Shown here piece by piece: positions 28,194 to 49,312 of a DNA stretch of 54,478 bases. The stretch lies in assembly GCA_900320955.1 (NCBI GenBank), contig ONUN01000001.1, forward strand, positions 1-54,478, in the 5' to 3' direction. The stretch comes from an uncultured Methanobrevibacter sp. (GTDB taxonomy: Archaea > Methanobacteriota > Methanobacteria > Methanobacteriales > Methanobacteriaceae). Positions within the stretch are counted from its first letter, which is position 1. The number at the start of each line of letters is the position of its first letter. The notes beneath the pieces are model-generated. The model ran no database searches. It saw only the letters and a program-made list of their open reading frames with translations, and had not been told where the DNA came from. A program made the position numbers and the translations under genes.

Positions 28194-28404
28194 AATATCC
28201 ACACACGAGTATATCTCCCATATTATATTATTGATTTTAATGTTAATTAAATTGAATGTATAATTTAAATTTTAATTTTGTGAATGGCATTTTTACATTA
28301 ACGATAATATCTTCACAAATCAAATCTGATTTTAACCTGCCATATATATGCAAGACTTTAAAAAAGTAGTTTATGGTAGATATTAATGTCCCAGTTATGA
28401 ATCA

Positions 28405-28703: not shown

Positions 28704-28748
28704 ATTTTCATATCTTCCAGAATATTTTATAATCAATTCCAACCCGAA

Positions 28749-29111: not shown

Positions 29112-29123
29112 GCCGCCTCCCAA

Positions 29124-30143: not shown

Positions 30144-30272
30144 GAAAATCACTTTCTATAGTTTAATTATGTGACTTATTTGTTAATAACTTTTTTTAAT
30201 TATATGAAAATTGGAAAAGTTAAATAACACCAAATCTAAAATTTTAATTAGATATTCAATCTGGTGAGAAAT

Positions 30273-30920
30273 ATGGGTCTTATGGCTTTTGATAACACAT
30301 GGTACTGTGATAAATGCGGTGAACACATCAAGAATGAAGATGATTTTATTTACTGTCCGAAATGTGGAAATGTCTTAAAAAATGACTGGTATCAGATGGC
30401 CTTGCAGTCAATTGAAAAGTGTTTAGGCAATTTTTCAAAAAGCATATGTGAAGACTGTGGTGAGGAATTTGATGAAGACTATAACTTCTGTCCGTTATGC
30501 TCAAATGAACTTAAAAAAGAAGGCATCATGAAAAGAGTGGAAAAGGACAATTCAATTATTGCCCAATGGAATAGTGAAGAAGTCTGCGTATTTGATAAAG
30601 AGATATTTTTATCATCACCCCATTTTTCAGGAACAACAGTAACAGACTGTTTTGAATGGAAAGATTATCTGGACAGTAAACTTGAATCAGACTTTATGAA
30701 AATTGATTCTAAACCCCCACAAAGACTTTCTTTTAAAGAAACTTACTCAATATTTATATTAAAAGGAAGTGGAGAAATAGTAAGGGGAATAATAAAATTT
30801 CTTCCGGAATATAATAAAGAAAATTTCAATTATGAACCCTATAAAGCAGAAATGATTGATGTTTTAAAAATAAGAGAAGATTTATATGTTATAGTAGCAG
30901 TAGACAATGTAGTTTATTAA
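30273..30920 (+). CDS. double zinc-ribbon protein
   Basis: A 215-residue soluble protein with two zinc ribbons, CDKCGEHIKNEDDFIYCPKC and CEDCGEEFDEDYNFCPLC, in the first 85 residues. The rest is a mixed alpha/beta domain (SIIAQWNSEEVCVFDKEIFL, SIFILKGSGEIVRGIIKFLP) that I do not recognise. ATG 30273 is the likely start; the GTG at 30264 is part of the GGTGAG binding site. Confidence 0.6.
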   Translation: MGLMAFDNTWYCDKCGEHIKNEDDFIYCPKCGNVLKNDWYQMALQSIEKCLGNFSKSICEDCGEEFDEDYNFCPLCSNELKKEGIMKRVEKDNSIIAQWNSEEVCVFDKEIFLSSPHFSGTTVTDCFEWKDYLDSKLESDFMKIDSKPPQRLSFKETYSIFILKGSGEIVRGIIKFLPEYNKENFNYEPYKAEMIDVLKIREDLYVIVAVDNVVY

Positions 30921-31378
30921 ATTAAATAATTTATTCTTAACAATCATTCTAACACTCCAGATATATAAATGAATCTCGATAAAATGACTAAAATAGATGT
31001 TAAATCATTACAAATCCAATATTGGAAAAAGTTAATTGGATACAAACAATCAAAGAATTTACAAAATTAAACTCCGCAAAAGTCAGACAAAGTCTTACAG
31101 GATTCTAAAAACTAATTACCATCACCATATATATTTAAAAAGTTCAAATTGATTTATAATCAATTTAATAGCATGAAAAAATAAAAATAGTCGTAGGTGA
31201 TGTTACTCCTACAAATGTATATGAAAATATAAAAAAGTAAAGTAACTGCTGAAGCAATTACTTTTTATTTTTTCTTAACATCCAATCTTACAACATACCT
31301 AACAATAACAGAGGCATTTCATTAACTGAAAAAAATAAACTCATTGAAATAAAAAAATTTAAGAGACTTATTATCCTC
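30921..31378. other. gene-free stretch with two hairpins and an adhesin 3' remnant
   Basis: This stretch has no full gene. It holds the hairpin GTAGG/CCTAC at 31193-31212 and the adhesin-type terminator hairpin at 31241-31262. The minus-strand frame ending at a TAA at 31265 reads ASVIVRYVVRLDVKKK over about 31265-31315, which looks like the last strand of an Ig-like adhesin domain. So an adhesin gene probably once ended here before its body was lost. Confidence 0.4.
31241..31262 (-). terminator. hairpin terminator of the adhesin type
   Basis: AGTAACTGC (31241-31249) pairs with GCAATTACT (31254-31262) over nine positions with one mismatch and a TGAA loop. On the minus strand it is followed by CTTTACTTTTTT. 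The same hairpin recurs at 39712, 45899 and 54096. Confidence 0.6.
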
Positions 31379-32674
31379 CTAGAACACCATCTTACCAGAT
31401 ATATAAATCCAATCATGAGGATTATCATTTGGCATTGCAATATATTGATATCTTACAAGATTAGTTAATTCACCATTTAACCTGCCGCAATAACCATAAA
31501 AGAATACATAAATTGGAAGTTGATTATTATAGTACTGGTTTGTTTTTACTTTAAAGTAAAGGTCTATCGGATAGCCAGCATGCCTATGATTTTTGATATA
31601 TTTAATTTTTTTATATTGCGCTGCTGTAAGAGCAAATACATATTTGCCTTTTTTAACAACTACATTATTGACAACAACTTTGGAAGTGCTCAGTTCGGAT
31701 TTATAATATTTGGAAACAAATTTGGCAGTATAATAATAAGTTTTTGCTTTAGACAATAGGATTTTCTTTTTAGCTATCCCATTTTTAACATTTACATTAA
31801 ATGTTTTGCCATTGATTTTAAACTTTACATAACCCTCATCCATAGATTTTCCATTGCTTTTTTTAACAATGGCCTTCAGAATAACTGGTTTTACCACATT
31901 AGTTTTAGCATTTTTTGTTGTGACTTTAGCAACAGATTGTTTTACAACTATTTTCGAAGAACTGGTTTTACCAGCTAATAGGGAGTGAGGATAAACATTA
32001 TAAGTATAGGTCTTAGCGTCTACAAGTTTAATCTTCTTTTTTGCTATTCCATTGATAACATTGGCACAATATATCTTCCCATTAATCTTAAATTTAACAG
32101 AACCAAAATTGACACGTTTTCCATTCTTATCTTTTACAACAGCTTTTAAAATTGAGGAAACAGTTGTTCCCTTACAATTCATTGCATTTATTTTAACATC
32201 ATATTTTGCAATTTTTAAAGCATTGTCCATATAAAAGTCCGTATCCCCTATGAAGACATGAATTTTATAATTACCTGGATGTATATCCCCTAATTTAAAT
32301 TTAAAAATACCTTTTGAATTAGTGGTTCCCCAAAATGGAGCAAAATCTGCATTTCCTCCTAACTCCAAATCAATGTTTTCATTTTTAAAGGGTTCATTGC
32401 CATTTGTAATTTTTATTTCAACAGAATCTCCATAATGATAATTTTTTTTATAATTGTTTACAGAAGCTTTAATTTTGCTCCAATCTTCTTCAATTTCATA
32501 CTCTTCGCCATCTTCATCATCTAACTCGTCACTTAAGTCAGACAGTTTACCATCTACCTTAACTTCAGTTATATCATCTACATTATCAGTTGCATTTTCT
32601 GCGGCACTTACTGCCGAAACTGCCAATAATGAAACAATAATTATTGATAGTGCAATTACTTTCTTATTAAGCAA
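31379..32674 (-). CDS. secreted Ig-like adhesin-type protein with C-terminal AQYKK domain
   Basis: A 432-residue protein starting at TTG 32674, chosen because GGAGG (32684-32688) stands nine bases ahead and the TTG at 32689 would lack a site. The N-terminus has a signal peptide (KKVIALSIIIVSLLAVSAVS, then AAENATD). An acidic linker leads to three Ig-like units: a carboxypeptidase-regulatory-like unit (residues 70-150), then two units with the segments FKINGKIYCANVINGIAKKK and FKINGKTFNVNVKNGIAKKK. The last ~90 residues (YVFALTAAQYKKIKYIKNHR, VFFYGYCGRLNG) form a domain shared with the protein at 34033-34848. Cell-surface location is inferred; partners are unknown. Confidence 0.68.
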   Translation of the reverse strand: MLNKKVIALSIIIVSLLAVSAVSAAENATDNVDDITEVKVDGKLSDLSDELDDEDGEEYEIEEDWSKIKASVNNYKKNYHYGDSVEIKITNGNEPFKNENIDLELGGNADFAPFWGTTNSKGIFKFKLGDIHPGNYKIHVFIGDTDFYMDNALKIAKYDVKINAMNCKGTTVSSILKAVVKDKNGKRVNFGSVKFKINGKIYCANVINGIAKKKIKLVDAKTYTYNVYPHSLLAGKTSSSKIVVKQSVAKVTTKNAKTNVVKPVILKAIVKKSNGKSMDEGYVKFKINGKTFNVNVKNGIAKKKILLSKAKTYYYTAKFVSKYYKSELSTSKVVVNNVVVKKGKYVFALTAAQYKKIKYIKNHRHAGYPIDLYFKVKTNQYYNNQLPIYVFFYGYCGRLNGELTNLVRYQYIAMPNDNPHDWIYISGKMVF

Positions 32675-32732
32675 AGCTTTTTCCTCCAAACTTATTATAT
32701 GTTAATTTCATTGATTTTAAATGAAAACGCAT

Positions 32733-33524
32733 TTAATTGTTCACATGATATGTTTGGCCTCCAACATCCACAGTTCCATGGATGTTACCGTTACTGTCCA
32801 TATATGAATCGACTTTATAGTCCCCATAATCTGTATGTCCGGTCTGGTGTGATTCCACGCTTCCATCATCATATACAGTACCATGCGTATCTGCTGAGCC
32901 GTATTCTCCCTCATAATGTGATTGCACATCCCTGCCGTTTGAAGATGAGGAATACCTCTCTGAACTGCCTGAGCTGCTGGAACTACCAGAACTGCCAGAA
33001 CTGCCAGAACCTGAAGAAGAGCCCAAATCAGATGAAGAAGAATGTGACGGAGAATTGTCGTGATTAACGTTGCTTGAAGTGTAGTGATGTGGTGAAAGTG
33101 CACCCATTACACTGCCGGATAGTGCCAATACAATTACCAACACCAAAATAATGACTCCTATTTTCTTGTTGGTTGAAAGGCCATTGAAATCATCCCTAAT
33201 ATTGGGATTTTCATTGCCGTTTGCGTTTTCAACTTCAATATATGTCAAATACAATCCAGCTGCCCAAATTAGCATTCCAAATATGCCAAATACTGGAACA
33301 CCAAATCCGATCACATTACATATCAAACCGACAATAAATAATGCAACCCCTTTTTTAACATTTCCGGCATAAGCAATACCCAATCCGGGCAATATAAAGG
33401 ATATTATTAATGCAGTAATCATGTTTTTTTCATTTTTAACCTGTATTGCATTTAATCTCTTTCCGCATTCCCTGCAAAAAGTCGCATCATCAGGGTTTTC
33501 AGCCCCACAATATTCACAAAACAT
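32733..33524 (-). CDS. zinc-ribbon, multi-helix membrane protein with Ser/Gly-rich linker
   Basis: A 263-residue paralogue of the protein at 25315-25962. Zinc ribbon CEYCGAENPDDATFCRECG, then hydrophobic helices (MITALIISFILPGLGIAYAG, VALFIVGLICNVIGFG, GIFGMLIWAAGLYL, IGVIILVLVIVLALSGSVMG), a ~60-residue Ser/Gly linker, and a hydrophilic end (YKVDSYMDSNGNIHGTVDVG) probably outside the membrane. It is divergent from the gene at 33568. Confidence 0.65.
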   Translation of the reverse strand: MFCEYCGAENPDDATFCRECGKRLNAIQVKNEKNMITALIISFILPGLGIAYAGNVKKGVALFIVGLICNVIGFGVPVFGIFGMLIWAAGLYLTYIEVENANGNENPNIRDDFNGLSTNKKIGVIILVLVIVLALSGSVMGALSPHHYTSSNVNHDNSPSHSSSSDLGSSSGSGSSGSSGSSSSSGSSERYSSSSNGRDVQSHYEGEYGSADTHGTVYDDGSVESHQTGHTDYGDYKVDSYMDSNGNIHGTVDVGGQTYHVNN

Positions 33525-33567
33525 ATTATATAATCTGTCATATAAACTATATATAAATGGTGATTAT

Positions 33568-33939
33568 ATGAAATGTCCAAAATGCGGAAAAGTATACAAT
33601 GATAATGTCAGCAAATTTTGCACAGATTGCGGTGCCAAACTCATAAAAGAAAAAAATGAAATAACTCCAACAATGATACCGACCATAGATCCAGAAAAGG
33701 GTTCTCTCGATAACCAATTGGTCAACCAGAAAATATCCGAGTATTCCCATGAGGCAAAACTGGCAGACAAGGTCTACAAATCATATGTTACAAATGGCAT
33801 TTCAAGGCTTGATAAAGTAAATGGGAGATTTTTAGCATCACAGACAATCAAATTGGATGTCTTGATTGAGCAAAACAAGCAGCTGATCCAGCAAAATGAC
33901 AAAATAATAAAATTGCTTGAAAAGATTAGTGAGAAATGA
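33568..33939 (+). CDS. zinc-ribbon coiled-coil protein
   Basis: A 123-residue protein starting at ATG 33568 with GGTGAT just upstream; longer frames to the left are not preceded by a site. A zinc ribbon (CPKCGKVYNDNVSKFCTDCG) is followed by a linker and two helices, the last being a Gln-rich coiled coil (LDVLIEQNKQLIQQNDKIIK). There are no membrane helices. Probably an oligomeric partner of the neighbouring zinc-ribbon membrane proteins, by inference. Confidence 0.6.
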   Translation: MKCPKCGKVYNDNVSKFCTDCGAKLIKEKNEITPTMIPTIDPEKGSLDNQLVNQKISEYSHEAKLADKVYKSYVTNGISRLDKVNGRFLASQTIKLDVLIEQNKQLIQQNDKIIKLLEKISEK

Positions 33940-33975
33940 TTACAATCCCAGAATCAACTTAAAAAAAATAGAATA

Positions 33976-34000
33976 AAAATTGAGGAATAACCCCAATTTT
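33976..34000. terminator. bidirectional hairpin between convergent genes
   Basis: AAAATTGAGG (33976-33985) pairs with CCCCAATTTT (33991-34000) with one mismatch and an AATAA loop. It is flanked by T-rich sequence on the right and A-rich on the left, so it can serve both the rightward gene ending at 33939 and the leftward gene ending at 34033. Confidence 0.6.
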
Positions 34001-34032
34001 ATTTTAAAAAATTTAAACAAATATTGCATTCT

Positions 34033-34848
34033 TCACCATTTTGAAAACTTCTTAAAAATAGTTATTTTATTATAAAGTTTAGAGTTATTCAATTTTGTGA
34101 AAGAACCACTACATTTACATTTATTAAAATATTTGGCATTTTTTCCAATAACTTTAACATAATCATAGTAACGGTTATAAAATCCAAAGTAATGAATTAC
34201 TTGAACAATATGTTTATAAGCTACACCAGATTGGCCCTGACCATATGAAAACAACATGAAAACACGAGATTTTTTATAATAAGTCTTTTTACCAGCTTTA
34301 AGTTTTACTTTAACAAATTTATTAGTATTAACTGTTACATATGTCCTTAATCCTGTGGAAGTAATGTCATAACCTTTGTATTTTTCTCCAACATAGTAAT
34401 AATTGTAATCATCTTCAAAGAAGTAATCTTCAACTGGTGAAATCCTATAAAGTTTTTTATATTGTGCATTGCTTAGAACTACCTTATATCCCCCTATATT
34501 GAATGTTCTTTGTTTTTTAGTTGGTTGTTTGTATGCGGATGAAACGCTAACACTGCTGCTTAAAACATTGTCAGATGATGAAACACCCAATATTGTACCA
34601 TTTTCACATATGCTTAATACTTCACTCTTATCTGTTTCATTTGAGTTTGAAGAATTGCTTTCAACAGATATACTTACAGATTCATTTTCGTTAGAAAGTG
34701 AAACCGTGTCATTTTCCTGTCCATTAATTGAAATTAAATCATTATTTTGTTCTTTAACTACATCCGTACCATTATCAATAGCACTTACACAGGACATACT
34801 TAAAATAACAAGCAGAATGCTTAAAATCAAAACATATCTTTTTTTCAA
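34033..34848 (-). CDS. secreted protein with AQYKK-type C-terminal domain
   Basis: A 272-residue protein, start taken as TTG 34848 (AGGTGG just upstream; a GTG at 34857 is less likely). Signal peptide RYVLILSILLVILSMSCVSA, then a Ser/Asn/Glu-rich stretch of about 75 residues typical of methanogen surface proteins. The globular part begins FNIGGYKVVLSNAQYKKLYR and ends in basic, Tyr-rich strands with CKCSG near the C-terminus. It resembles the end of the protein at 31379-32674. Function unknown; surface location is inferred. Confidence 0.6.
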   Translation of the reverse strand: MKKRYVLILSILLVILSMSCVSAIDNGTDVVKEQNNDLISINGQENDTVSLSNENESVSISVESNSSNSNETDKSEVLSICENGTILGVSSSDNVLSSSVSVSSAYKQPTKKQRTFNIGGYKVVLSNAQYKKLYRISPVEDYFFEDDYNYYYVGEKYKGYDITSTGLRTYVTVNTNKFVKVKLKAGKKTYYKKSRVFMLFSYGQGQSGVAYKHIVQVIHYFGFYNRYYDYVKVIGKNAKYFNKCKCSGSFTKLNNSKLYNKITIFKKFSKW

Positions 34849-34857
34849 TAGCACCAC

Positions 34858-35207
34858 CTTGATTGTATTAATATTATGTTTATTGTATGATAATATTAAA
34901 TATTACTGTCTGAAAAAAATAATATTTTCAGCAAATTCCAAGGTTCCTATATTTATTGACAACATGTACTATTTTAATAACTATATTATTAAAGAGGAAG
35001 TAAAATGGAAAAGAGAGATAAACGACAATAACAATCATCACCCGTCACCATTTCCCATTTCCATAATCATAAGCTATTTCATCGGATGCCAGATTTCAAA
35101 TTGTCGGATTTGCATCATATATTTATACTTTTAAATAAAGATTTAATATTAATGTAATAAGATGTGTTTAATTAAAAAGAATCTTATTATACCTAGGAGG
35201 AAAACTT
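34858..35207 (+). promoter_or_regulatory. gene-free stretch with promoter of the zinc-ribbon operon
   Basis: Only short frames were seen, for example from ATG 35005 (MEKRDKRQ) behind a GAGG site, followed in another frame by a hydrophobic stretch (ISIIISYFIGCQ); this may be a decayed small membrane protein gene. Near 35112-35125 the plus strand has a TATA-like ATATATTTATACTTT, and AGGAGG lies eight bases before ATG 35208. Confidence 0.35.
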
Positions 35208-35735
35208 ATGGGAATTAGTTTAAATATTGATACGAATAATGAAAATGAGTTTAATCAACAATTGCAAATGTATTTAGCTCAAGGCTACAGCATGCAAAGT
35301 AATTTTAATGGAACTGCAATTTTAAAGAAGAAATCTTTTAGTATGGGATTATTAATTGTTTTAATTATTTTCTTTTTCCCTGCAGCAATTATCTATTATC
35401 TCGTTTCATCCGATGATGTTGTAACAATCAGGAATAATAATGTACAGGCACCTAGCAGCAATACCAATGCGAGCTCAACTGCAAAACCATTTGATTTATA
35501 CTGCGAAGAATGCGGTCAAGGATTATACAACGACTCCAAATTTTGCCCTAATTGTGGAAAAGACTTAACAGAACAACCGGTTAAAGAAGAAGCTCCAGCT
35601 GAAGAGGCACCTGCTGAAAACCTTATTGAAGAAAGTAAGGAAGAGTTAAAGTGTAAAAGTTGCGGTACCGAATTAAATGAAAATAACAGATTTTGCCCAA
35701 ATTGTGGTGAAAGCGTAAACACAACAGAAGAGTGA
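35208..35735 (+). CDS. membrane protein with two C-terminal zinc ribbons
   Basis: A 175-residue protein. A short N-terminal domain (MGISLNIDTNNENEFNQQLQ, FNGTAILKKK) precedes one or two hydrophobic helices (MGLLIVLIIFFFPAAIIYYL). Then come two zinc ribbons, CEECGQGLYNDSKFCPNCG and CKSCGTELNENNRFCPNCG, separated by a Glu/Ala/Pro linker. AGGAGG precedes the ATG. It opens a run of four short rightward genes spaced a few bases apart. Confidence 0.65.
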   Translation: MGISLNIDTNNENEFNQQLQMYLAQGYSMQSNFNGTAILKKKSFSMGLLIVLIIFFFPAAIIYYLVSSDDVVTIRNNNVQAPSSNTNASSTAKPFDLYCEECGQGLYNDSKFCPNCGKDLTEQPVKEEAPAEEAPAENLIEESKEELKCKSCGTELNENNRFCPNCGESVNTTEE

Positions 35736-35741
35736 GGAAAA

Positions 35742-36206
35742 ATGCCATATTGCAGCAATTGCGGTAAAGAATTAAAAGAAGGAACCAAGTTTTGTTCCGG
35801 ATGCGGAGCCCCGCAAACTGATGAAACTCCATCATCAGCCACCCAACAAAACAATACTTCAGGAACTGTATGCCCAAAATGCGGGTCAATAATACCAGTC
35901 GGAAATGTGGCATGTACAAATTGCGGCAGTTTATTGAATCCAGACAAGCATACTACGGCCATTGTTTTAGGATATATATGTTCAGTATTCCTCCCATTAT
36001 TTGGAATAATAATTGGAATATATCTCCTAACTAGGCCTAATAAGGACGTTCACAAACACGGGATAATTATGATAGTTCTAGCTATAGTAATGACCATTAT
36101 TTGGTGGTTATTCTTTTCATATATGGCCTATAGAAGTAGAATGAGCTATTACAATAACTATTACAGATCACCAAGCTATGGACGCAGCAGCTATTATGGA
36201 TATTGA
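35742..36206 (+). CDS. double zinc-ribbon membrane protein
   Basis: A 154-residue protein. Two zinc ribbons (CSNCGKELKEGTKFCSGCG and CPKCGSIIPVGNVACTNCG) are followed by two hydrophobic helices (TAIVLGYICSVFLPLFGIII and GIIMIVLAIVMTIIWWLFFS) and a Tyr/Ser-rich tail (YYNNYYRSPSYGRSSYYGY). GTGAGG lies four bases before the ATG. Same operon as the gene before, six bases apart. Confidence 0.65.
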   Translation: MPYCSNCGKELKEGTKFCSGCGAPQTDETPSSATQQNNTSGTVCPKCGSIIPVGNVACTNCGSLLNPDKHTTAIVLGYICSVFLPLFGIIIGIYLLTRPNKDVHKHGIIMIVLAIVMTIIWWLFFSYMAYRSRMSYYNNYYRSPSYGRSSYYGY

Positions 36207-36513
36207 ATTAGGTGAAACCATACCAATATTTTGTGATAAATGCGGAGCGAAAATAAGAAACGAAAATGCTAAATTCTGTGATAAGTGCGGAAATGAAATT
36301 ACCACAACAGGCAATAATATCCATTCAACCAGCACTTCATATTCCTGTCCTTATTGTGGTCAAAAAATTCCATATTCGACCAAATGTCCCAAATGCGGAA
36401 AATCATTGCAAAATGATGATGCGGTAAAGGCAGGATTAGGTGTAGTTGGTATTGTCATATTATTATTTTTAATAAGTGGAATTTGTGGATTTTTATTACT
36501 TCTATTTGCTTAA
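36196..36513 (+). CDS. double zinc-ribbon protein with C-terminal membrane helix
   Basis: About 105 residues if begun at ATG 36196. Two zinc ribbons (CDKCGAKIRNENAKFCDKCG and CPYCGQKIPYSTKCPKCG) are followed by one helix (AGLGVVGIVILLFLISGICG). The start is unusual. The in-frame ATGs (36178, 36196) lie inside the end of the previous gene and have no binding site, while AGGTGA at 36210-36215 stands four bases before an ATA at 36220 that would begin I-P-I-F-C-D-K-C-G, exactly where its neighbours begin. So an ATA start or a mutated ATG is possible. Confidence 0.6.
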   Translation: MDIELGETIPIFCDKCGAKIRNENAKFCDKCGNEITTTGNNIHSTSTSYSCPYCGQKIPYSTKCPKCGKSLQNDDAVKAGLGVVGIVILLFLISGICGFLLLLFA

Positions 36514-36526
36514 TGGAGGCATAATA

Positions 36527-37054
36527 ATGGTAAAGTTTTGTGATAAATGTGGAGAACAACTAAAAAACGAAAATGCAAATTTCTGCGATAAATGTGGAGC
36601 GGAAGTTAAAATAAACAATAATCAAAACAACACTGGAATAACCAATACCGGACCGATGACAGTATGTCCTCATTGTGGCCAAACCACATCCAGTGAACTA
36701 ACTCATTGTGAAAAATGCGGATTATCTCAAAATGAATATACTGCCGGAGTTATTGTAGGTTATATTGTTACATTCATACTGGGCTTTTTTTTAATTCGAG
36801 TACTCCCTATAATAACCTATAATATTTTTGCATCCATATTTTTGATTATAACTTTAATTCCGGCTATTTACCTGTTAACAAGGAAAAGCGGAAAGGCAAA
36901 AACTCAAGGAGTATTCCTTATTGGATTAATTATACTATGGTGCATACTATCCTATATATTCAGATACTCAGTTGAGATTACCTATTTAATAGTAATTCTA
37001 TTAATGGCCGCAGGAATATATTTATGGTTTAAAGATTACTCTTTATTCCATTAA
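36527..37054 (+). CDS. double zinc-ribbon, multi-helix membrane protein
   Basis: A 175-residue protein starting MVKFCDKCG at ATG 36527, with GGAGG (36515-36519) seven bases upstream. Zinc ribbons CDKCGEQLKNENANFCDKCG and CPHCGQTTSSELTHCEKCG are followed by four hydrophobic helices (AGVIVGYIVTFILGFFLI, IFASIFLIITLIPAIYLL, GVFLIGLIILWCILSYIF, ITYLIVILLMAAGIYLWF). It is the last gene of the zinc-ribbon run; the first ribbon is nearly the same as in the gene before, which points to recent duplication. Confidence 0.65.
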   Translation: MVKFCDKCGEQLKNENANFCDKCGAEVKINNNQNNTGITNTGPMTVCPHCGQTTSSELTHCEKCGLSQNEYTAGVIVGYIVTFILGFFLIRVLPIITYNIFASIFLIITLIPAIYLLTRKSGKAKTQGVFLIGLIILWCILSYIFRYSVEITYLIVILLMAAGIYLWFKDYSLFH

Positions 37055-37098: not shown

Positions 37099-37320
37099 TT
37101 AATCTGTACAACATCCTTTCCTTACGGATTCATCAAGACATTCAGCGACTTTCGCATCTTTGAGCTCATGCAAGACCTTTGAAATGTGGTTTGGTCTGAT
37201 TCCAGTGTCTTTGGCTATCTGTGTTGGCATTTTCACTTCATCTTTCAATGCATTGACAGTTTTTACGCGATAAGAAGAAATATTTACATAAGCGTAGGTT
37301 TTTAATGTTTCATCATCCAT
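37099..37320 (-). CDS. winged-helix transcriptional regulator with frameshifted C-terminus
   Basis: A 73-residue protein with a winged-helix core: VNISSYRVKTVNALKDEVKM, then PTQIAKDTGIRPNHISKVLH (recognition helix) and ELKDAKVAECLDE. Related small archaeal regulators end in a wing KGRLYRLT. Here the frame ends RKGCCTD, but the alternative frame reads M-L-Y-R-L-T-N-L-M-M-K to a TAG at 37079. One missing G in AAAGGATG explains both, so the wing tip is lost or the base was mis-read. It probably controls itself or the neighbouring surface genes (see the palindrome at 37370). Confidence 0.65.
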   Translation of the reverse strand: MDDETLKTYAYVNISSYRVKTVNALKDEVKMPTQIAKDTGIRPNHISKVLHELKDAKVAECLDESVRKGCCTD

Positions 37321-37542: not shown

Positions 37543-37602
37543 TCAAACATCCTTAATGGTTAATTTCAGTGTTGTGTTGCCAGTGCAGTTTTCATTTCAA
37601 CT
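37543..37602 (-). pseudogene. 3' relic of a sixth array member (Ig-like domain end)
   Basis: The minus strand reads NENCTGNTTLKLTIKDV and a TGA at 37543. This matches the end of the Ig-like domain in the five full genes (NENYTGNNTTQKLTIKEK) with several changes. Nothing upstream of it belongs to the same copy, because the stop of the 37612 gene lies only ten bases away. It marks the downstream boundary of the array. Confidence 0.6.
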
Positions 37603-37611
37603 ATTTTCCGT

Positions 37612-38211
37612 TCATTTAAATCCGAGACTGTGAATTTCACCAGTCCGCACATCCACAGTCCTCATGTAGCCGTCTGCATATTCCTGTTTAACATGATATT
37701 CATCAATGAAATATCTTTTAGTTTCAGGATAGGGATCATTGGATGGGGGCAAATTATTAATGTCATACCAGGATCCGGATGAAGACTTGGAATTGGATGA
37801 AACCAATTGGGCCTGTGCAGTTTTTTCCTTGATTTCCAATTTCTGTGTCGTGTTGTTTCCAGTGTAGTTTTCATTTCCACTATAACTAACAGCAACATCA
37901 TATTTACCTTTATCCAGCTTCAAATCCATTTTGGCATTACCCTTGTCATTGGTCTTAACAGTTTTATTTGCAACAACCTTACCTTTGCTGTCCTTGACTG
38001 TGATGTTGACATTCTGCTTGGATAGTGGAGTCTTATTCAAGTCAGTCAGCTTAACTGAGAGTTTATCTCCTTCGTATAAAGTCTTATTGCTGGTAATTTT
38101 AATTTTAGTTGGTTCCTTGGCATGAATTGGATTCAGTACAGCAAATCCGATAGCTGCTGCAAGAATAACAATTATCACAACCAGTATTATGATTATATTT
38201 TTGCTTTCCAT
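37612..38211 (-). CDS. array member 1: membrane-anchored Ig-like protein with variable tail
   Basis: A 199-residue protein from the MESKN start at ATG 38211, with GGTGAT three bases further up. An uncleaved N-terminal helix (IIIILVVIIVILAAAIGFAV) anchors it, probably with the rest outside. Residues 35-125 are one Ig-like domain (LYEGDKLSVKLTDLNKTPLS, VNITVKDSKGKVVANKTVKT). The tail (WYDINNLPPSNDPYPETKRY, then DVRTGEIHSLG) is closely related to that of array member 5 at 40631 but not to the others. Its start follows the stop of the previous gene by ten bases and it has no promoter block of its own. The binding partner is unknown. Confidence 0.65.
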   Translation of the reverse strand: MESKNIIIILVVIIVILAAAIGFAVLNPIHAKEPTKIKITSNKTLYEGDKLSVKLTDLNKTPLSKQNVNITVKDSKGKVVANKTVKTNDKGNAKMDLKLDKGKYDVAVSYSGNENYTGNNTTQKLEIKEKTAQAQLVSSNSKSSSGSWYDINNLPPSNDPYPETKRYFIDEYHVKQEYADGYMRTVDVRTGEIHSLGFK

Positions 38212-38220
38212 CATATCACC

Positions 38221-38844
38221 TCATGTATGGTATGTTCCGGTATTCGGATCACGGGAAGTATAGCCCCCAACAGTCACATACTCTCCAGGCCTGTCGCCAT
38301 CCACTCTCATTTCAATATAGTGCATGTCATTTGCAATTGCATACTCTCGGGTTATGCCCTGAGAATCAACTTCAGGCCCATATTCAGGATATATTCCACC
38401 ATCAGGAGCATTTTTGCTTGCATGAGTTGTGGTTGAGGTTTGCTTTCCACCAACCAATTCGGCAGTTGCCTTTTTAACTGTGACATTATCAGAAACGGCA
38501 GCTGATGCGTATTTATTATTCCCTTCGAATTTGCATTCGACGGAATACTTGCCTTCCTCTTTCATTTTATATTTGGCCTGACCTTTGGAATTGGTTTTTA
38601 TTCCCTTTTCGGTTGTTGATCCGCTTTTGTCTTTAATTTTAATTTTAATTGTTTCATTTGAAATTGGATTTCCATTGATATCGGTTAATTTGACGGCCAA
38701 TGAATCACCGGCCTTAACGCTCTTATCCACAATTTTCAGATTTGACTTTTCCTTTGTCATTTGCTGAGAAAACATCACGCCTATGGCCGCCGCAAGAATA
38801 ACGATTATCACAATCAATATTATAATAATGTTTTTGTTTTCCAT
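38221..38844 (-). CDS. array member 2: divergent membrane-anchored Ig-like protein
   Basis: A 207-residue protein from ATG 38844 (MENKN), six bases after GGGATG; ATG 38853 is an alternative. It has the same plan as the others, with an N-terminal anchor (IIIILIVIIVILAAAIGVMF) and one Ig-like domain (VKAGDSLAVKLTDINGNPIS, KYSVECKFEGNNKYASAAVS), but is much more diverged. The tail (GGIYPEYGPEVDSQGITREY, VGGYTSRDPNTGTYHT) is unique. Only about 45 bases separate it from the gene upstream and no promoter block is present, so it is cotranscribed with members 3 and 1. Confidence 0.62.
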   Translation of the reverse strand: MENKNIIIILIVIIVILAAAIGVMFSQQMTKEKSNLKIVDKSVKAGDSLAVKLTDINGNPISNETIKIKIKDKSGSTTEKGIKTNSKGQAKYKMKEEGKYSVECKFEGNNKYASAAVSDNVTVKKATAELVGGKQTSTTTHASKNAPDGGIYPEYGPEVDSQGITREYAIANDMHYIEMRVDGDRPGEYVTVGGYTSRDPNTGTYHT

Positions 38845-38888
38845 ATTATGCATCCCATGTATAATCTATTTAGAAATAATCCCATTAG

Positions 38889-39485
38889 TTACAGTTGAGA
38901 ATAGAAATCACCATCTCTCATGAACGGTTCCTTCGGATCCTGTCCGCTGATTGCACGGCTCTTGTCCTCTATGAAATTACCGCTTGGAGTCCAGAACCCA
39001 TATCTTCCATCCTTATATCCATATTTAAGGTTTCCTTCAGTTCTTTCAATATAAGTGTCAGTTGAGTGGGTTGGCTGTGATTGTGCAACTTTCTCCTTTT
39101 CCTTGACAGTCAGTTTTTGTGTGGTGTTGTTTCCAGTGTAATTTTCATTTCCACCATAAATTACAGTAACATCATATTTTCCTTTCTTCAAGTTCAAATC
39201 CAGTTTTGCATTACCCTTGTCATTGGTCTTAACAGTTTTATTTGCCACAACCTTGCCTTTGCTATCCTTGACAGTGATATTGACATTCTGCTTGGACAAT
39301 GGAGTCTTATTCAAGTCAGTCAGCTTAACTGACAAGTCCCCACCTTCATATAAAGTCTTGTTGCTTGTGACTTTGATTTTAGTTGGTTGCTTGGCATGCA
39401 TCGGATTCAATACAGTAAATCCGATTGCCGCTGCAAGAATAACAATAATCACAATTAAAATTACAATGATATTTTTGCTTTCCAT
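38889..39485 (-). CDS. array member 3: membrane-anchored Ig-like protein with WTPSG tail
   Basis: A 198-residue protein. N-terminal anchor (IIVILIVIIVILAAAIGFTV), the conserved Ig-like domain almost identical to members 4 and 5, then a unique tail (YGYKDGRYGFWTPSGNFIED, SGQDPKEPFMRDGDFYSQL). GGGGG lies ahead of ATG 39485, and the shared promoter block lies at 39500-39544. It heads the transcription unit for members 3, 2 and 1. Confidence 0.65.
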   Translation of the reverse strand: MESKNIIVILIVIIVILAAAIGFTVLNPMHAKQPTKIKVTSNKTLYEGGDLSVKLTDLNKTPLSKQNVNITVKDSKGKVVANKTVKTNDKGNAKLDLNLKKGKYDVTVIYGGNENYTGNNTTQKLTVKEKEKVAQSQPTHSTDTYIERTEGNLKYGYKDGRYGFWTPSGNFIEDKSRAISGQDPKEPFMRDGDFYSQL

Positions 39486-39499
39486 ATTGAGTTCCCCCC

Positions 39500-39544
39500 T
39501 ATAAACTAATACTATTTATACACAACTTGCATAATAACATTTTC
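39500..39544 (-). promoter_or_regulatory. shared promoter block of array member 3
   Basis: On the minus strand this block reads GTTATTATGCAAGTTG, then the TATA box GTATAAATAGT, then ATTAGTTTATA, ending in the G-rich binding site. The TATA box lies about 30 bases before the ATG, giving a very short leader. The same block is present upstream of members 4, 5 and the 5' relic with almost no changes. Confidence 0.65.
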
Positions 39545-39711
39545 GACCACCAAAACAAACCCCACAATAATGAAAAGAACATGCGAATATTTTGACAGAT
39601 GAATATAGAAACAGTAAAATAAATAGTCAATTGTTGAATTAAACAGAATTGATTATAAAAAATAGTGCAAACATACAAGTGAATGTACTAGAAAAAAAAT
39701 AAAAAAAGTAA

Positions 39712-39734
39712 AGTAACTGCAAAAGCAAGTTACT
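39712..39734 (-). terminator. adhesin-type terminator hairpin
   Basis: AGTAACT (39712-39718) pairs with AGTTACT (39728-39734); the minus strand continues into T-rich sequence. The TAA ending the in-frame adhesin-tail relic (39730-39732) lies in the stem. Confidence 0.55.
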
Positions 39735-39813
39735 TTTTAATTTTTGCAGTTTTCTTAACAGTGTCCTTGAGGTATGTTGCCTGATAGGTTATCATTTTGC
39801 CGATCTTGGGCTT
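39730..39813 (-). pseudogene. adhesin C-terminal tail fragment in frame after the stop of array member 4
   Basis: Directly after the stop of member 4, and in the same frame, the minus strand reads KPKIGKMITYQATYLKDTVK followed by KTAKIKK and TAA. This is nearly identical to the end of the adhesin at the right edge of the window (ATYQATYLKDTVKKTAKIKK). Only the last strand of the domain is present. It shows that member 4 recombined with the 3' end of an adhesin gene. Confidence 0.7.
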
Positions 39814-40395
39814 TTATTCCACCATTGCCTGGTATTTTTCAACCAATTCCGGAGACTTTGTATATACATACATCGGTATTCCATCATCTGCTGCTTTTTG
39901 CCTTGCAGCATATATTTTTCTTGTCTCTTCAGGCATATGACTGCCAGAAGTTTGGTCTGATGAATCTCCGGAGTTTACCTGTTCAACAGTAGCCTTAGCA
40001 ACTTCCTTTTCTTTAACTGTTAATTTCTGTGTGGTATTGTTTCCAGTGTAGTTTTCATTTCCATCATAAATTACAGTAACATCGTATTTTCCTTTCTTCA
40101 GGTTCAAATCCAGTTTTGCATTACCCTTGTCATTGGTTTTAACAGTTTTATTTGCCACAACCTTGCCTTTGCTGTCCTTAACAGTGATGTTGACATTCTG
40201 CTTGAACAGTGGAGTCTTATTCAAGTCAGTCAGCTTAACTGACAAGTCGTCACCTTCGTATAAAGTCTTGTTGCTTGTGACTTTGATTTTAGTTGGTTGC
40301 TTGGCATGCATCGGTTTTAATACCATAAATCCGATTGCAGCTGCAAGAATAACAATTATCACAAGCAATATTATGATTATGTTTTTGCTTTCCAT
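39814..40395 (-). CDS. array member 4: membrane-anchored Ig-like protein with helical tail
   Basis: A 193-residue protein. N-terminal anchor (IIIILLVIIVILAAAIGFMV), conserved Ig-like domain (LYEGDDLSVKLTDLNKTPLF, KYDVTVIYDGNENYTGNN), then a short helical tail (MPEETRKIYAARQKAADDGI, SPELVEKYQAMVE). GGAGG stands ahead of ATG 40395 and the promoter block lies at 40409-40453. After its stop an adhesin tail continues in the same frame. Pro-to-His and other changes relative to members 3 and 5 are few in the shared part. Confidence 0.65.
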   Translation of the reverse strand: MESKNIIIILLVIIVILAAAIGFMVLKPMHAKQPTKIKVTSNKTLYEGDDLSVKLTDLNKTPLFKQNVNITVKDSKGKVVANKTVKTNDKGNAKLDLNLKKGKYDVTVIYDGNENYTGNNTTQKLTVKEKEVAKATVEQVNSGDSSDQTSGSHMPEETRKIYAARQKAADDGIPMYVYTKSPELVEKYQAMVE

Positions 40396-40408
40396 TTAAG
40401 TTCCTCCA

Positions 40409-40453
40409 TATAAACTAATACTATTTATACACAACTTGTATAATAACATTTTC
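40409..40453 (-). promoter_or_regulatory. shared promoter block of array member 4
   Basis: This is a copy of the block at 39500-39544, differing at one or two positions (CAAGTTGTGTATAAATAGT core). It is followed on the minus strand by GGAGG and the ATG. Confidence 0.65.
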
Positions 40454-40580
40454 TGAAATGAAAACAATACCTCAATAATCAAAAGAACATATAAATATTT
40501 TGATAGTTGTTTCCAAAACAGCCCAATAAACAATTAATATTTAAAGCAGAAGAAATGAATTATAAAAAAAAGTGAAATGA

Positions 40581-40624
40581 TACAAGTGAATGTATATGAA
40601 AAAATAGAATTGTGGTGGATGAAG
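40581..40624 (-). terminator. terminator-like hairpins downstream of array member 5
   Basis: ATACA-AGTGAA-TGTAT (40580-40595) is a short hairpin that recurs at 39674 and 45861 in similar AT-rich surroundings. Next to the stop of member 5, GGTG and CACC arms are followed on the minus strand by TTCTATTTTTTC, which looks like a transcription end. Confidence 0.4.
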
Positions 40625-40630
40625 TTTCAC

Positions 40631-41221
40631 CTAGAAAAATCCACCATGCCTTTCACCTGTTCTTAAGTCTACAATACTTCGATAATGATCAGAATACTCC
40701 TGCGCCACATGATTTTCATCAATTTGATATCTCCTGGTTTCAGGATTCGGGTCATTGCTTGGCGGCAAATTATTAATATCATACCGATTTCCTGATGAAG
40801 ATTGAGAACTGGTAGGTTGTGCTTGAGCAACCTTTTCTTTAATAGTCAATTTCTGTGTCGTGTTGTTTCCAGTGTAGTTTTCATTTCCACCATAAGTAAC
40901 ACTGACATCGTATTTTCCTTTCTTCAGGTTCAAATCCATTTTTGCATTACCCTTGTCATTGGTTTTAACAGTTTTATTAGCCACAACCTTGCCTTTGCTG
41001 TCTTTTACTGTAATGTTGACATTCTGCTTGGACAGTGGAGTCTTATTCAAGTCAGTCAGCTTAACTGACAAGTCGTCACCTTCTGATAAAGTCTTATTGC
41101 TTGTGACTTTGATTTTTGTTGGTTCTTTTGCATGCATCGGATTCAATACAGTAAATCCGATTGCAGCTGCAAGAATAACAATAATCACAAGCAATATTAT
41201 AATTATATTTTTGCTTTCCAT
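40631..41221 (-). CDS. array member 5: membrane-anchored Ig-like protein
   Basis: A 196-residue protein. N-terminal anchor (IIIILLVIIVILAAAIGFTV), conserved Ig-like domain (SVKLTDLNKTPLSKQNVNIT, KYDVSVTYGGNENYTGNN) and a tail (RYDINNLPPSNDPNPETRRY, DLRTGERHGGFF) shared in kind with member 1 although the two genes lie at opposite ends of the array. GGGG lies ahead of ATG 41221, with the promoter block at 41235-41279. The gap to 41486 upstream holds nothing else. Confidence 0.65.
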   Translation of the reverse strand: MESKNIIIILLVIIVILAAAIGFTVLNPMHAKEPTKIKVTSNKTLSEGDDLSVKLTDLNKTPLSKQNVNITVKDSKGKVVANKTVKTNDKGNAKMDLNLKKGKYDVSVTYGGNENYTGNNTTQKLTIKEKVAQAQPTSSQSSSGNRYDINNLPPSNDPNPETRRYQIDENHVAQEYSDHYRSIVDLRTGERHGGFF

Positions 41222-41234
41222 TTAATTTCCCCCA

Positions 41235-41279
41235 TATAAACTAATACTATTTATACACAACTTGCATAATAACATTTTC
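41235..41279 (-). promoter_or_regulatory. shared promoter block of array member 5
   Basis: This is another copy of the block at 39500-39544, with the TATA box GTATAAATAGT about 30 bases before the ATG. Confidence 0.65.
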
Positions 41280-41486
41280 TGAAATGAAAATACTCAAAAG
41301 GACATAATGGCTCGATGGAAAATCAAAAAAAAATTTATTTATAATTATTTTTATTAATGCAAATTGCATCTTGATTAATTTTAGATGGGTGTTTGAAATT
41401 TGTTTAGTAGGTTAAGTGGTATTCAAAGTTTGTGATAATAGGTTGATTACAAATCTTTGTTTTTTATTACTTTTAACAGAAACTAT

Positions 41487-42155
41487 TTAAATTTCTTTAA
41501 TTACCTCTACTTTTCCTCCTATATTATTAAACCAACTTATTACTTCCTTTTTTTCAATATCCATGCCGTTAGCACCTTTCCACGCATATCCTGATTTTCC
41601 TCCATAGTGATGGATGTATTTTTCATGATTTCTAACTGCCCGAATTTTTAATCCTTCAGACAAAATTTGGCTTTGAATTTTTGTTATAGACCACCACCAT
41701 TCGAAATATTCGTCAAGTTGATATTTGTCATATAAGTATTTATCAATCAAAAAGCAATATCCATCTGCTCTAACAGGATCTGAAAGAACTGCTCCAAATG
41801 ATGAGATTCCCCCTTTTTCTGGATGAATTTCCATTAATTTATTAAAACAGTTGGGGTCATTAATTTTTATATCTGAATTAAGAAGCAAATAATGGGTTGT
41901 GTCAGGGCTTGCATATTTGCTAGCTAAATTATTTCCTTTAGCAAATAAATCATTTTTAGAATTAAAAATTAATTTGTCGATTAGTCCTTTTTCGTTTAAA
42001 TTATTTAAAAGATTTTTTGTTTGAAATTGGGAGTTATTGTCAAGTACGATTAACTCTAAATTATTTGTTTTTTCTTTTGCTTTGTTAACTCCCTTCACTG
42101 ATTCAAGAACACATCTGGGAGCATTAAAAGTTAACATTAATATGGATATTTTCAT
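41487..42155 (-). CDS. family 2 glycosyltransferase
   Basis: A 222-residue GT-A fold protein: MKISILMLTFNAPRCVLESV (nucleotide-sugar binding strand), LELIVLDNNSQFQTKN, AKGNNLASKYA and HYLLLNSDIKIND, in which the Asp-x-Asp metal motif of the family is represented by NSD. The C-terminal half (GYCFLIDKYLYDKYQLDEYF, HHYGGKSGYAWKG) holds the acceptor side. It probably adds a sugar to a cell-surface glycan or protein; the donor is unknown. Its only apparent promoter is the array-type block at 42320-42364, carried by the relic upstream. Confidence 0.78.
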   Translation of the reverse strand: MKISILMLTFNAPRCVLESVKGVNKAKEKTNNLELIVLDNNSQFQTKNLLNNLNEKGLIDKLIFNSKNDLFAKGNNLASKYASPDTTHYLLLNSDIKINDPNCFNKLMEIHPEKGGISSFGAVLSDPVRADGYCFLIDKYLYDKYQLDEYFEWWWSITKIQSQILSEGLKIRAVRNHEKYIHHYGGKSGYAWKGANGMDIEKKEVISWFNNIGGKVEVIKEI

Positions 42156-42192
42156 TTTTACAACCTATTATTGAACTGATGTTAAATATTTT

Positions 42193-42306
42193 TTACTTTT
42201 TAGTATATAAATTTTGTTTAGATTTTTTTGTTGAATTTTGAGTGAATTTCAGACAAATCAATGAAATCATAATCCCCAAAATTATGATTATGTTTTTGCT
42301 TTCCAT
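42193..42306 (-). pseudogene. 5' relic of an array member: start and anchor only
   Basis: From ATG 42306 the minus strand reads MESKNIIIILGIMISLICLK, then FTQNSTKKSKQNLYTKK, and stops at 42193. The first nine residues and the leader are identical to the array genes, then the sequence departs. It could be a 37-residue membrane peptide in its own right, or the leftover 5' end of a deleted copy. Forty bases further on begins the glycosyltransferase. Confidence 0.6.
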
Positions 42307-42319
42307 TTAATTTCCCCCA

Positions 42320-42364
42320 TATAAACTAATACTATTTATACACAACTTGCATAATAACATTTTC
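42320..42364 (-). promoter_or_regulatory. array promoter block in front of the 5' relic and the glycosyltransferase
   Basis: This is an intact copy of the array promoter block with the TATA box GTATAAATAGT, identical to that of member 5 over its whole length as far as I can see. Because the relic is so short, transcripts from here would run into the glycosyltransferase gene. Confidence 0.6.
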
Positions 42365-42519
42365 TACACTGAAAAGGACATAACGGCAGGATGGAAAATC
42401 AAAAAAAAAGTTCCATAAATTGAAAATGTCTCCTTTCTATCATTTATATATTTAAACATCCAAAAATATTATCATTATAAAATATTTTTAATATTTAGGA
42501 AAATTTAGGAGAAATGAAA

Positions 42520-45916: not shown

Positions 45917-45922
45917 TTACTT
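45899..45922 (-). terminator. adhesin-type terminator hairpin containing the stop codon
   Basis: AGTAACTGC (45899-45907) pairs with GCAAGTTACT (45912-45921) in part; on the minus strand a T-rich run follows. The TAA of the 1131-residue adhesin (45917-45919) lies in the stem. Confidence 0.55.
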
Positions 45923-48900
45923 GACAGTGATTTTAGCTTTCACGGTTTTGGCATTGTAATATGCATTTCCGGGATATCTAACCAGTGCAGTGTACTTGCC
46001 TTTTTTGGTCAGTTTTGTGATTTTAAATGTTGCCTGACCTTTGGCGTTGGTTTTTGCAGAGAAAGTCTTGCCGTTGACTTTCAAGGTAAGCTTGACGCTT
46101 TTCATTGCCCTGTTCTGATTGGTCTTTAAGGTTACAGTGTATTTTTTGATTTTAACTGATTTTTTGAATGTCTTTGCTTTGGCAGTCAGTTTTGGATTTG
46201 CTTTTATAACGCTAAGCTTAACAGTTTTTGTTGCCTTGTTATACAAGATGCTTCCACCATATGCTACAGTTGCCTTATAGCTTGCCTTTTTTGAAAGACC
46301 AGTGATTTTAAAGGTGGCCTTTCCCTTGGAGTTGGTTGTGGCCATGTAAGTTTTTCCACCAACTTTCAAAGTGACTTTCGCATTGACTATCGCCTTTCCT
46401 GCATTGTCCTTTAAGGCTATTGTGTACTTCTTGGTTTTGGTGGTTGTGAGGAATGTTTTTTTAGCGGCCACAATCTTTGGAGTGGACTTTTTGGGTTGAA
46501 GAACGGTAATGTCATAGGACATTTCAAGTCCGGTCAACAAATCAACAGCCACCAGCACATATTTGCCCGGCTTTTGATTGATGTCTAAGCTGGCCTTTCC
46601 ATCCTTATCGGTTGGTCGGCTATATGATACGCCACCTATCTTCATTTCAATATTTGCATTTGCAACAGGATTTCCGGCAGTGTCAATCAGTGAAATGTAA
46701 AACTTTGATTTGTCCCCATAGCGTTTAACCAGATTTTTGGCTATAAGTGTAGGCAACACTTCAATATTGTTTACATTGCTGAAATTCACGTAGCGGGTTT
46801 GAATTGTATAGTTGCCCGGATTCAGGTCAATTTCCAGTTTAGCCACTCCATTTTCATCGCTTAAGCGGGTATGGTTAATGCCGTCAATCTCAAATAATAT
46901 AGTTTTATTGGCCTCACCTATTTTAGCTTCAAACATTGAATCGTTTTTATAGATTTTAACCATGTCCTGTGTAATTATTCCGAAATCGTGTGTGAATGCC
47001 TTTAAACAGACGACTGCATTTGAAAAATCAGCATAATTTACGCTGCCAGAGTTTTGATAGAGAGCCTTATGTGCGTAGTGCAGGTCTATCCAGTTGATGC
47101 CGTCAGGACTTATGAAGGAATGGTTTGGAGATGATGAGGTATTTGAAATCCACGCATCGACATCGCAGCTGACGGGAATCGGATATGTGCAGTTTGGAGT
47201 GGTTAGCTTTATTTCAATCCTGAAAACATCATTTCTTTTCAAATCAACGTAATCGCTCAATTTGACTGTATTGTATCCGGGATTGTGAATGACTCCTGAT
47301 TGGGTGTGTGATAGATTGTCATTGACATAGACATAAGCTTCATAGGCGGAATCGACACCAAATGTATATAGGCTGAAAGCTGCAAGAGGATAAGAATTGT
47401 TTGAAACGAACTGATTGGAAAACCATGCTGTTTGGTTATTGAATCCGAAATTGACGAGTGTTCCGGCAGGATCATAATAGTAATTCTCCTTATAGTTGTC
47501 TGTATCCTCCATGTTCACTATTGCATATGGAATGTTTTCCATTGACAGTGCCATGTCATAATATGAGATGTAGTTGAAGCCCTTGCCTTCATAATAGATT
47601 GTCTTGTTCAGTTTTGTGTTATACTCGCTTGTACCGAAACTGTTTTTTAATATGAATGCTCCGTCAGGAATGTTTTCACCAAAATTGGAGCCCAGATAGT
47701 TATCATCCCATCCGACGATATCGACCACATGGGAAGAAAAGCGAGGCAATGTCACTAACGGTGAAACTTCACTTTCAAAGGTTGTTCCATTGATTGTCTT
47801 GAGTTCAGGCTGAACAAATTTATATCCGATAACTACAGAACCATATTTCAACACAGCAAGCTTTAACTGAACAATATCCATTACCGGAAGATATACAACA
47901 TCCTGAACATGTTTAATGACAGTCAGGTTGGTTGGGGATACTGTGGAGTTTTCATTGAAGGGATCATCACTGGCATTGACAGGTCCTGACCACCTGCTCC
48001 AGTAAGCAAGCGTTTTGGCAGTTCCACCTCCTCTCATGAATGCCCAGCCGCCTTTTGTATATGGACCCATTATGTTTTTCTGATGGTTTTCAGAAAAGTT
48101 ATACAACCTGTTTTCACTTTCCAGAAGATATGACTCCAAAGCACCGATTGCTGCAAAAGCCCAGCAGGTACCTGAATTTTCCTGGTTCTTGACTGGAGAC
48201 ACATATGATACTATTGTGCCGTTTTCTAGAGTAACGTTTCTCAAGTCATACTTTGCCGGAATGACAGTATCTGCCTCATCCAATACCTTGTCAAATACCA
48301 TTGGCCAAAAGAGAGCATAGATTATGTCTTCATCACCAGTGCAGGAATTGTTTTCTACAGTTGAGCTTTTCAGATTAGCCTTTCCGATTATGGTGTAAAT
48401 GGTATCGTCAATTCTGTTTCGGGTGTTTTGAGTGTTGTTTATAATTGTGGTGTTTTCCACATTGACAATGCCGTAATTAAATATGGAGCTTCCATATCCA
48501 TAGTCTCCCATGATTGAATTGCCGATGAATCTGGAATTGCTTATATTACTTTCATATTGATAAAAGGCAATTGCTCCACCAAACGGAGACTCACCGCTGA
48601 CGGAATTGTTGATGAAATCGCACCTGTCTATCGAATTGACCGAAAGCATGCTAAAAATAGCGCCAGAAGCATTGGTTGCACTATTATTTATGAATGATAC
48701 ATTTATAAAATCAGCAATTGAATATGCAACATATACGCAACCGCCTTCGACTGCAGAATTGCCTGAAAAGAAACAGTCAGTAAAACATAGTGTTGATAAC
48801 GATGCATATACAGCACCTCCTTTTGATGCCGAACAGCCCTCAAAAGTACAGTTGCTCAGGATGCCGTCATCTGCCTTCCAGTTAATGGCACCGCCGTTGC

Positions 48901-49312
48901 CTGTGAATTTAGCATTAATGAATTTCAAATTCTTTAAAGCCACATTGCCTGCAGTGACATCGAATATTCTGGAGACATTTTTTCCATCCAGCGTGTTTCC
49001 ACCTCCGTCAATGGTTATTGACTTATTTATTTTGATTCCACCGGTTCGGCCGTCAGAATATATGTAGTCTTTTGTAAGGTTCAATACTCCCCCATCCTCA
49101 ACGGCATTAATCTCATTAGTCAAATCTTCAAAAGTACCTGCATCTGAAGCATTAGCGCCAATTAAACGATTGTTAGAATCAGCACCCATAACCTCATCGG
49201 ATATTTCAATACCTGCAACTTCATCTGTATCGTTATCTGCCGCACTTACCACAGAAACGGCAAGAAAGCAAGCAAGAATTAATGTTATCAAAATTAATTT
49301 TCGATTAAACAA
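45917..49312 (-). CDS. large secreted adhesin-like protein with papain-family cysteine peptidase domain
   Basis: An 1131-residue protein begun at TTG 49312 behind GGAGGG. Signal peptide LILITLILACFLAVSVVSAA. Residues 60-330 are a right-handed beta-helix (ITIDGGGNTLDGKNVSRIFD, FINNSATNASGAIFS and similar turns). Residues 350-590 are a C1 peptidase: VKNQENSGTCWAFAAIG holds Gln377 and nucleophile Cys383, SSHVVDIVGWDDNY holds His528, and FILKNSFG holds Asn557, so all catalytic residues are present. Residues 600-790 form a beta-rich domain (YTFGVDSAYEAYVYVNDNLS) and the remaining part holds four Ig-like units (VTLKVGGKTYMATTNSKGKA, LTLKVNGKTFSAKTNAKGQA). Probably on the cell surface; the substrate could be host or neighbour peptides or the cell's own wall. 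Confidence 0.8.
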   Translation of the reverse strand: MFNRKLILITLILACFLAVSVVSAADNDTDEVAGIEISDEVMGADSNNRLIGANASDAGTFEDLTNEINAVEDGGVLNLTKDYIYSDGRTGGIKINKSITIDGGGNTLDGKNVSRIFDVTAGNVALKNLKFINAKFTGNGGAINWKADDGILSNCTFEGCSASKGGAVYASLSTLCFTDCFFSGNSAVEGGCVYVAYSIADFINVSFINNSATNASGAIFSMLSVNSIDRCDFINNSVSGESPFGGAIAFYQYESNISNSRFIGNSIMGDYGYGSSIFNYGIVNVENTTIINNTQNTRNRIDDTIYTIIGKANLKSSTVENNSCTGDEDIIYALFWPMVFDKVLDEADTVIPAKYDLRNVTLENGTIVSYVSPVKNQENSGTCWAFAAIGALESYLLESENRLYNFSENHQKNIMGPYTKGGWAFMRGGGTAKTLAYWSRWSGPVNASDDPFNENSTVSPTNLTVIKHVQDVVYLPVMDIVQLKLAVLKYGSVVIGYKFVQPELKTINGTTFESEVSPLVTLPRFSSHVVDIVGWDDNYLGSNFGENIPDGAFILKNSFGTSEYNTKLNKTIYYEGKGFNYISYYDMALSMENIPYAIVNMEDTDNYKENYYYDPAGTLVNFGFNNQTAWFSNQFVSNNSYPLAAFSLYTFGVDSAYEAYVYVNDNLSHTQSGVIHNPGYNTVKLSDYVDLKRNDVFRIEIKLTTPNCTYPIPVSCDVDAWISNTSSSPNHSFISPDGINWIDLHYAHKALYQNSGSVNYADFSNAVVCLKAFTHDFGIITQDMVKIYKNDSMFEAKIGEANKTILFEIDGINHTRLSDENGVAKLEIDLNPGNYTIQTRYVNFSNVNNIEVLPTLIAKNLVKRYGDKSKFYISLIDTAGNPVANANIEMKIGGVSYSRPTDKDGKASLDINQKPGKYVLVAVDLLTGLEMSYDITVLQPKKSTPKIVAAKKTFLTTTKTKKYTIALKDNAGKAIVNAKVTLKVGGKTYMATTNSKGKATFKITGLSKKASYKATVAYGGSILYNKATKTVKLSVIKANPKLTAKAKTFKKSVKIKKYTVTLKTNQNRAMKSVKLTLKVNGKTFSAKTNAKGQATFKITKLTKKGKYTALVRYPGNAYYNAKTVKAKITVK

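Follow-up and report, generated by a model that had tools for sequence, protein, structure and literature searches.

What kind of system is encoded by a tandem array whose genes share a common head and carry different tails? Five such genes lie on a contig of an uncultured Methanobrevibacter species, and the original prediction took them for a recombination-driven surface variation system. The window analysed here is that whole contig (C37; 54,478 nucleotides), part of a MAG of 230 contigs that is 84% complete. The relatives that protein search brought up are ruminant Methanobrevibacter MAGs; the genome collections used for comparison hold one genome per species.

The array itself is as predicted: a common anchor and Ig-like domain recur in five intact open reading frames (ORFs), g1 to g5, on the minus strand between 37612 and 41221 (Table 1). 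By ORF call, each encodes a product of 193–210 aa in which a transmembrane (TM) anchor is followed by a single Ig-like domain, and a Ser-rich linker leads to the tail. Every gene has a promoter or an operon position, and g1 starts only a few bases after g2 ends. A second contig, C36, carries one more family member with a different tail (class E).

Table 1. Positions in the window of the array genes and of the remnants and neighbours that adjoin them
Feature	Position	Strand	Description and basis
Degenerate head 3' end behind g1	37550..37604	-	81% over 58 nt, frame broken
g1	37612..38211	-	Head as g3–g5, 38211-37825; tail class A1, 37824-37615; basis: ORF call, A1 clade in tail tree, AlphaFold2 model
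g2	38221..38844	-	Divergent head type, 38844-38470; tail class B, 38469-38224
g3	38889..39485	-	Head as g5, 39485-39099; tail class C, 39098-38892
Upstream arm before g3, similar to that of g4	39486-39695	-	Local alignment; C36 copy also has one
Adhesin-like 3' end and terminator, abutting g4 stop codon	39697..39815	-	Scar
g4	39814..40395	-	Head as g5, 40395-40009; tail class D, 40008-39817
Shared upstream arm of g4	40396..40605	-	Terminator-like stretch, promoter TATAAATAG, RBS; local alignments
g5	40631..41221	-	Anchor and Ig head, 41221-40835; linker/tail class A2, 40834-40634; basis: ORF call, Pfam Big_3_5 below cutoff, A2 tail clade, positional counterpart in G016
GT2 family glycosyltransferase ORF	41487..42155	-	PF00535, E=1.1e-7; after truncated sixth copy
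Truncated sixth copy	42277..42412	-	Upstream arm and first ~10 codons; 87.6% over 145 columns against g5 unit

The heads are of two types. Those of g1, g3, g4, and g5 are 86–92% identical in DNA and 88–95% in amino acids, so that their first description as nearly identical in DNA was a little strong; the g2 head, at only 64–66% DNA identity to the others, is a second type. Head homology ends sharply near codon 130, where sliding identity drops from about 90% to 25–50% at +390 from the ATG. The pattern is far beyond chance: a 300-nt direct repeat is present in four copies at 86–93% identity. Within the genome, head dS for pairs of g1, g3, g4, and g5 is 0.30–0.56. The head was found in 28 of 37 same-genus genomes (this one included), whereas 24 genomes from other genera yielded none.

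The likeness continues upstream. An arm of about 205 bp, with TATAAATAG and a GGAGGAA-type RBS, is 82–88% identical among g4, g3, the C36 copy, and genes of the related genome G016. The g5 arm has about 70 bp in common with that of g4 and more than 100 bp with that of the truncated sixth copy, and the C36 copy combines the same head and upstream arm at a separate locus.

In the AlphaFold2 model of g1, a helix (residues 3–26) precedes an Ig sandwich (35–127; pLDDT mostly 80–89) and a disordered linker, and the tail is predicted, at modest confidence (about 60–66), to form a β-meander. For the Ig part, the likeness in PDB is to macroglobulin/complement MG domains (best Foldseek match, a macroglobulin MG4 domain; E 2e-4), and Pfam matches of the array heads to Big_3_5/Big_1 lie just under the cutoffs. 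For the tails, no Pfam match was found for ten classes at E up to 1, and a PDB profile search found nothing. A model of tail K, a class absent from the window, gave weak SINA/TRAF-like PDB matches (E >0.004, partly from low-confidence models), which were set aside. No RNA families were found in the region. (A viral origin was also considered and rejected: viral contigs and phage records hold no relatives.)

Two families of anchored proteins bear comparison. Passages of PMC2812497 and PMC11532034 describe the adhesin-like proteins (ALPs) of Methanobrevibacter and Methanosphaera as mostly large proteins with a TM anchor, Ig-like domains, and many paralogues per genome. The array proteins likewise join an N-terminal TM anchor to an extracellular Ig-like (Big_1/Big_3-like) domain, but at about 200 aa they are small, have one Ig domain followed by a modular tail that is conserved, and lack repeated Ig or beta-helix domains. 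Those passages make no mention of exchangeable C-terminal tails or of recombination in ALPs, and recombination likewise goes unmentioned in the searched text of the published adhesin papers on M. ruminantium and M. smithii. The second family is the archaeal type IV pilins (PF07790), which also place a hydrophobic N-terminal helix before a beta-rich domain. The Pilin_N profile scores g2 at 26.3 bits, against a cutoff of 25.2, and the other four below cutoff. Inspection by eye found no cleavage site of the type III signal-peptide kind (charged residue plus G/A) before the helix; the N-termini read MESKNIIII or MENKNIIII.

The tails, as predicted, differ in most array members, the exception being g1 and g5 (70% aa identity). 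The family was assembled from fetched loci (about 100 members) and an enlarged set of 135 rows, a few of them overlapping copies of one gene; the rows were selected for their likeness to the head and tails in the window, so that the sampling is biased towards the query. Family members have in common the anchor, Ig domain, linker (usually Ser-rich), and tail; about 20 tail classes recur, beside some singletons. These classes were re-assigned by core motifs chosen by eye, because automatic BLAST clustering had fused low-complexity linkers (class T0).

Among 67 genus genomes, the tail search found tail A in 13, B in 22, C in 10 (two of these weak matches), and D in seven (one copy each). Copy number is mostly one per class and genome, and tail content varies among species. 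Further tails without heads, for which the original prediction had proposed a search as a check, did not appear: a search of this 84% complete genome found no extra or headless tails A–D beyond the array genes.

Across Methanobrevibacter species, same-class tails mostly show 78–96% aa identity, and heads usually 63–75%. Compared with the A1 gene of G023, g1 is 64% identical in the head and 96% in the tail; for g5 and the A2 gene of G026, the values are 39% and 88%. (Exceptions to this pattern are tail E and the relatives in G014, which are divergent, as well as g4 and its G076 relative, with heads 85% identical.) A1 tails have dN of 0.02–0.08 and dS of about 1–1.8, for a dN/dS of about 0.02–0.06; per-tail dS is noisy because the tails are short, and several tail C comparisons are saturated. 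Judged by these sequence comparisons, the tails are conserved modules under purifying selection, not hypervariable ones.

Heads and tails have separate histories. Built from 63 rows, the head tree requires 21 changes of tail label, against a shuffled mean of 22.9 (16% of shuffles are as low), and 39 changes of genome label, against a mean of 51.7 and a minimum of 46 in 2000 shuffles. AU tests reject a single head clade for tails C (p 5e-4), D (2e-6), and A1 (3e-4). Scattered tail labels, clustered genome labels, and these rejections together indicate that heads have become homogenised inside each genome and are uncoupled from their tails. In the tail tree, the split between A1 and A2 has 99/98 support, and testing rejects a clade of g1 and g5 (p ~1e-29). 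The related tails at the two ends of the array, once taken to point to exchange, are therefore better read from their phylogeny as old paralogues than as products of recent exchange.

Tails also occur without the Ig head. Classes D, F, G, K, and Q are found on other carriers: a bare anchor; a zinc-ribbon TM protein; a secreted protein with another domain; and an anchored protein with a different domain. This makes the tail the portable unit.

Several single loci illustrate the range of layouts. In G016 (L042 13349-13795), tail K is joined directly to an anchor, and the Ig head is missing; tail B and tail M genes belong to the same run. In G017 (L087 2103-2480), a head-only member of 125 aa, with no tail, is flanked by two tailed genes. 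Several proteins that combine a zinc ribbon with TM segments are encoded in the window itself (25315-37054); their linkers are Ser-rich and their tails short, and this kind of carrier bears tail G in G014 and G009.

The array borders carry recombination scars (Table 1). The adhesin-like 3' end against g4 is 84% identical over 118 nt to window 54198-54082, and 82% to locus L045 of G016; shortly beyond it, the array's intergenic unit picks up again. The same unit also lies directly downstream of a gene for a 1131-aa protein, both here and in G016, and the region of that gene is 86% identical in DNA between the two genomes over 3.6 kb. After the orthologous gene, G016 has A2 then F, whereas in the window extra genes intervene before A2 then D. 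The order B then A1 recurs in G078 and G084, and in G023 with H between; the array is thus not freely reshuffled.

(The 1131-aa product, at window 45917-49312, is adhesin-like or peptidase-like and by eye has a papain-like protease motif. On the other side of the array, window 37099-37320 encodes a 73-aa winged-HTH protein whose multicopy family occurs in 66 of 67 genus genomes, with copies adjoining tail genes in some, such as G070 C8 and G071 C11. A multicopy, genus-wide family is useless as a synteny anchor, and the gene was dropped from that role.)

Defence-like genes occupy another part of the window. Positions 41-2772 encode the C-terminal part of PglX, the BREX methyltransferase (565 aa; E 8e-195), convergent with a 345-aa ORF that by eye is tyrosine-recombinase-like; lying at the contig edge, this may be a BREX pglX that is phase-variable or truncated. 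One operon at 3745-9905 holds ZacA, ZacB, and ZacC homologues and looks like a complete Zac (Azaca) defence system by PADLOC profiles. An AAA protein and its partner at 10270-21143 resemble McrBC by eye, and a profile for type IV methyl-directed restriction enzymes matches at 18750-21143.

What, then, does the array do? On balance, it probably encodes display proteins of the wall space: a modular repertoire, shuffled by recombination, in which the tails are functionally constrained. Each product would be a small membrane-anchored display protein, with an uncleaved N-terminal helix, an Ig-like spacer, and a flexible Ser-rich linker that ends in a small beta-rich module, the tail. Across the genus, the tails would form a shared pool of conserved modules, each distinct from the others. 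The repeated promoter and head arm would serve for recombination, whether homologous recombination or gene conversion, which presumably keeps the heads of one genome alike and attaches different tails to resident heads; tails may move onto further anchored carriers as well. The most likely role of every tail is to recognise a fixed target of its own, within or close to the pseudomurein wall; the wall polymer, a partner protein, and a neighbouring cell are candidates. Array members are probably expressed together rather than switched, and with a separate target for each tail, the array would widen the repertoire.

A more static alternative holds that the tails are old orthologous genes that stay in place, while gene conversion from a resident donor overwrites heads only. 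It deserves a hearing, as a tentative second choice: it accounts for the homogenised heads and upstream arms, for the B-then-A1 order kept in several species, and for the mostly single copy of each tail class. It does not readily explain why the same tail sits on wholly different carriers, why the D-tail abuts an adhesin 3' end, or why A2 is followed by D here and by F in G016. Some movement of tails, at least, is favoured by the variety of carriers and by the A2-D/A2-F contrast.

Surface (antigenic) variation was the sense of the original prediction; on this reading, tails would be swapped often to evade hosts, phages, or antibodies. Part of that prediction stands: a constant head is joined to different tails, and the two have decoupled histories. 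Moreover, in the pilE/pilS and vlsE systems, homologous arms flank different modules in a tandem array; this array has such repeated arms, together with remnants of further copies, and its tail content differs among species. However, promoterless silent cassettes were not found in this 84% complete genome, the tails keep their sequence from species to species and have low dN/dS, classes are mostly single copies with no extra or headless A–D tails here, all five ORFs are intact, and the g1/g5 similarity is ancient. (A 200-aa protein with one Ig domain may also fail to cross a pseudomurein wall.) Heads that recombine against constrained tails argue for a display repertoire with fixed targets, and an antigenic variation system is improbable.

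Less probable still are contact effectors like those of polymorphic toxin systems, with tails as exchangeable effector domains delivered from the surface. Those systems join a constant N-terminal part by recombination to C-terminal modules, on several carriers and with patchy distribution (PMC3482391), and the array shares the constant N-terminal region, the exchangeable modules, the variety of carriers, and the patchy distribution. However, no ORF lies between array genes, hence no immunity-like gene follows any tail; the tails, mostly 40–60 aa, match no toxin or other known domain; the proteins are permanently anchored in the membrane; and archaea rarely have the classical systems. A history of plain tandem duplication and later tail divergence, without exchange, would suit the tandem units with similar intergenic stretches, and is scarcely credible given that tails have their relatives in other species and heads in the same genome, that AU tests reject co-inheritance, and that the C36 copy has the same head and arm at another locus.

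The fixed-target display repertoire may have a wider counterpart. The case seems evenly balanced for a genus-wide pool of portable tails, in some 20 or more classes, that recombination joins to several unrelated membrane carriers in intestinal methanogens and that would constitute an archaeal form of polymorphic display with fixed targets. The portable classes tested appear, from sequence searches, to belong to no known domain family.

Methanobrevibacter is the dominant methane producer in ruminants. Conserved, interchangeable small tails without a known family offer testable candidates for the recognition modules by which it may contact its partners. Moreover, because head and tail have different histories, orthology calls will mislead, as will any choice of antigen that relies on the shared Ig head.
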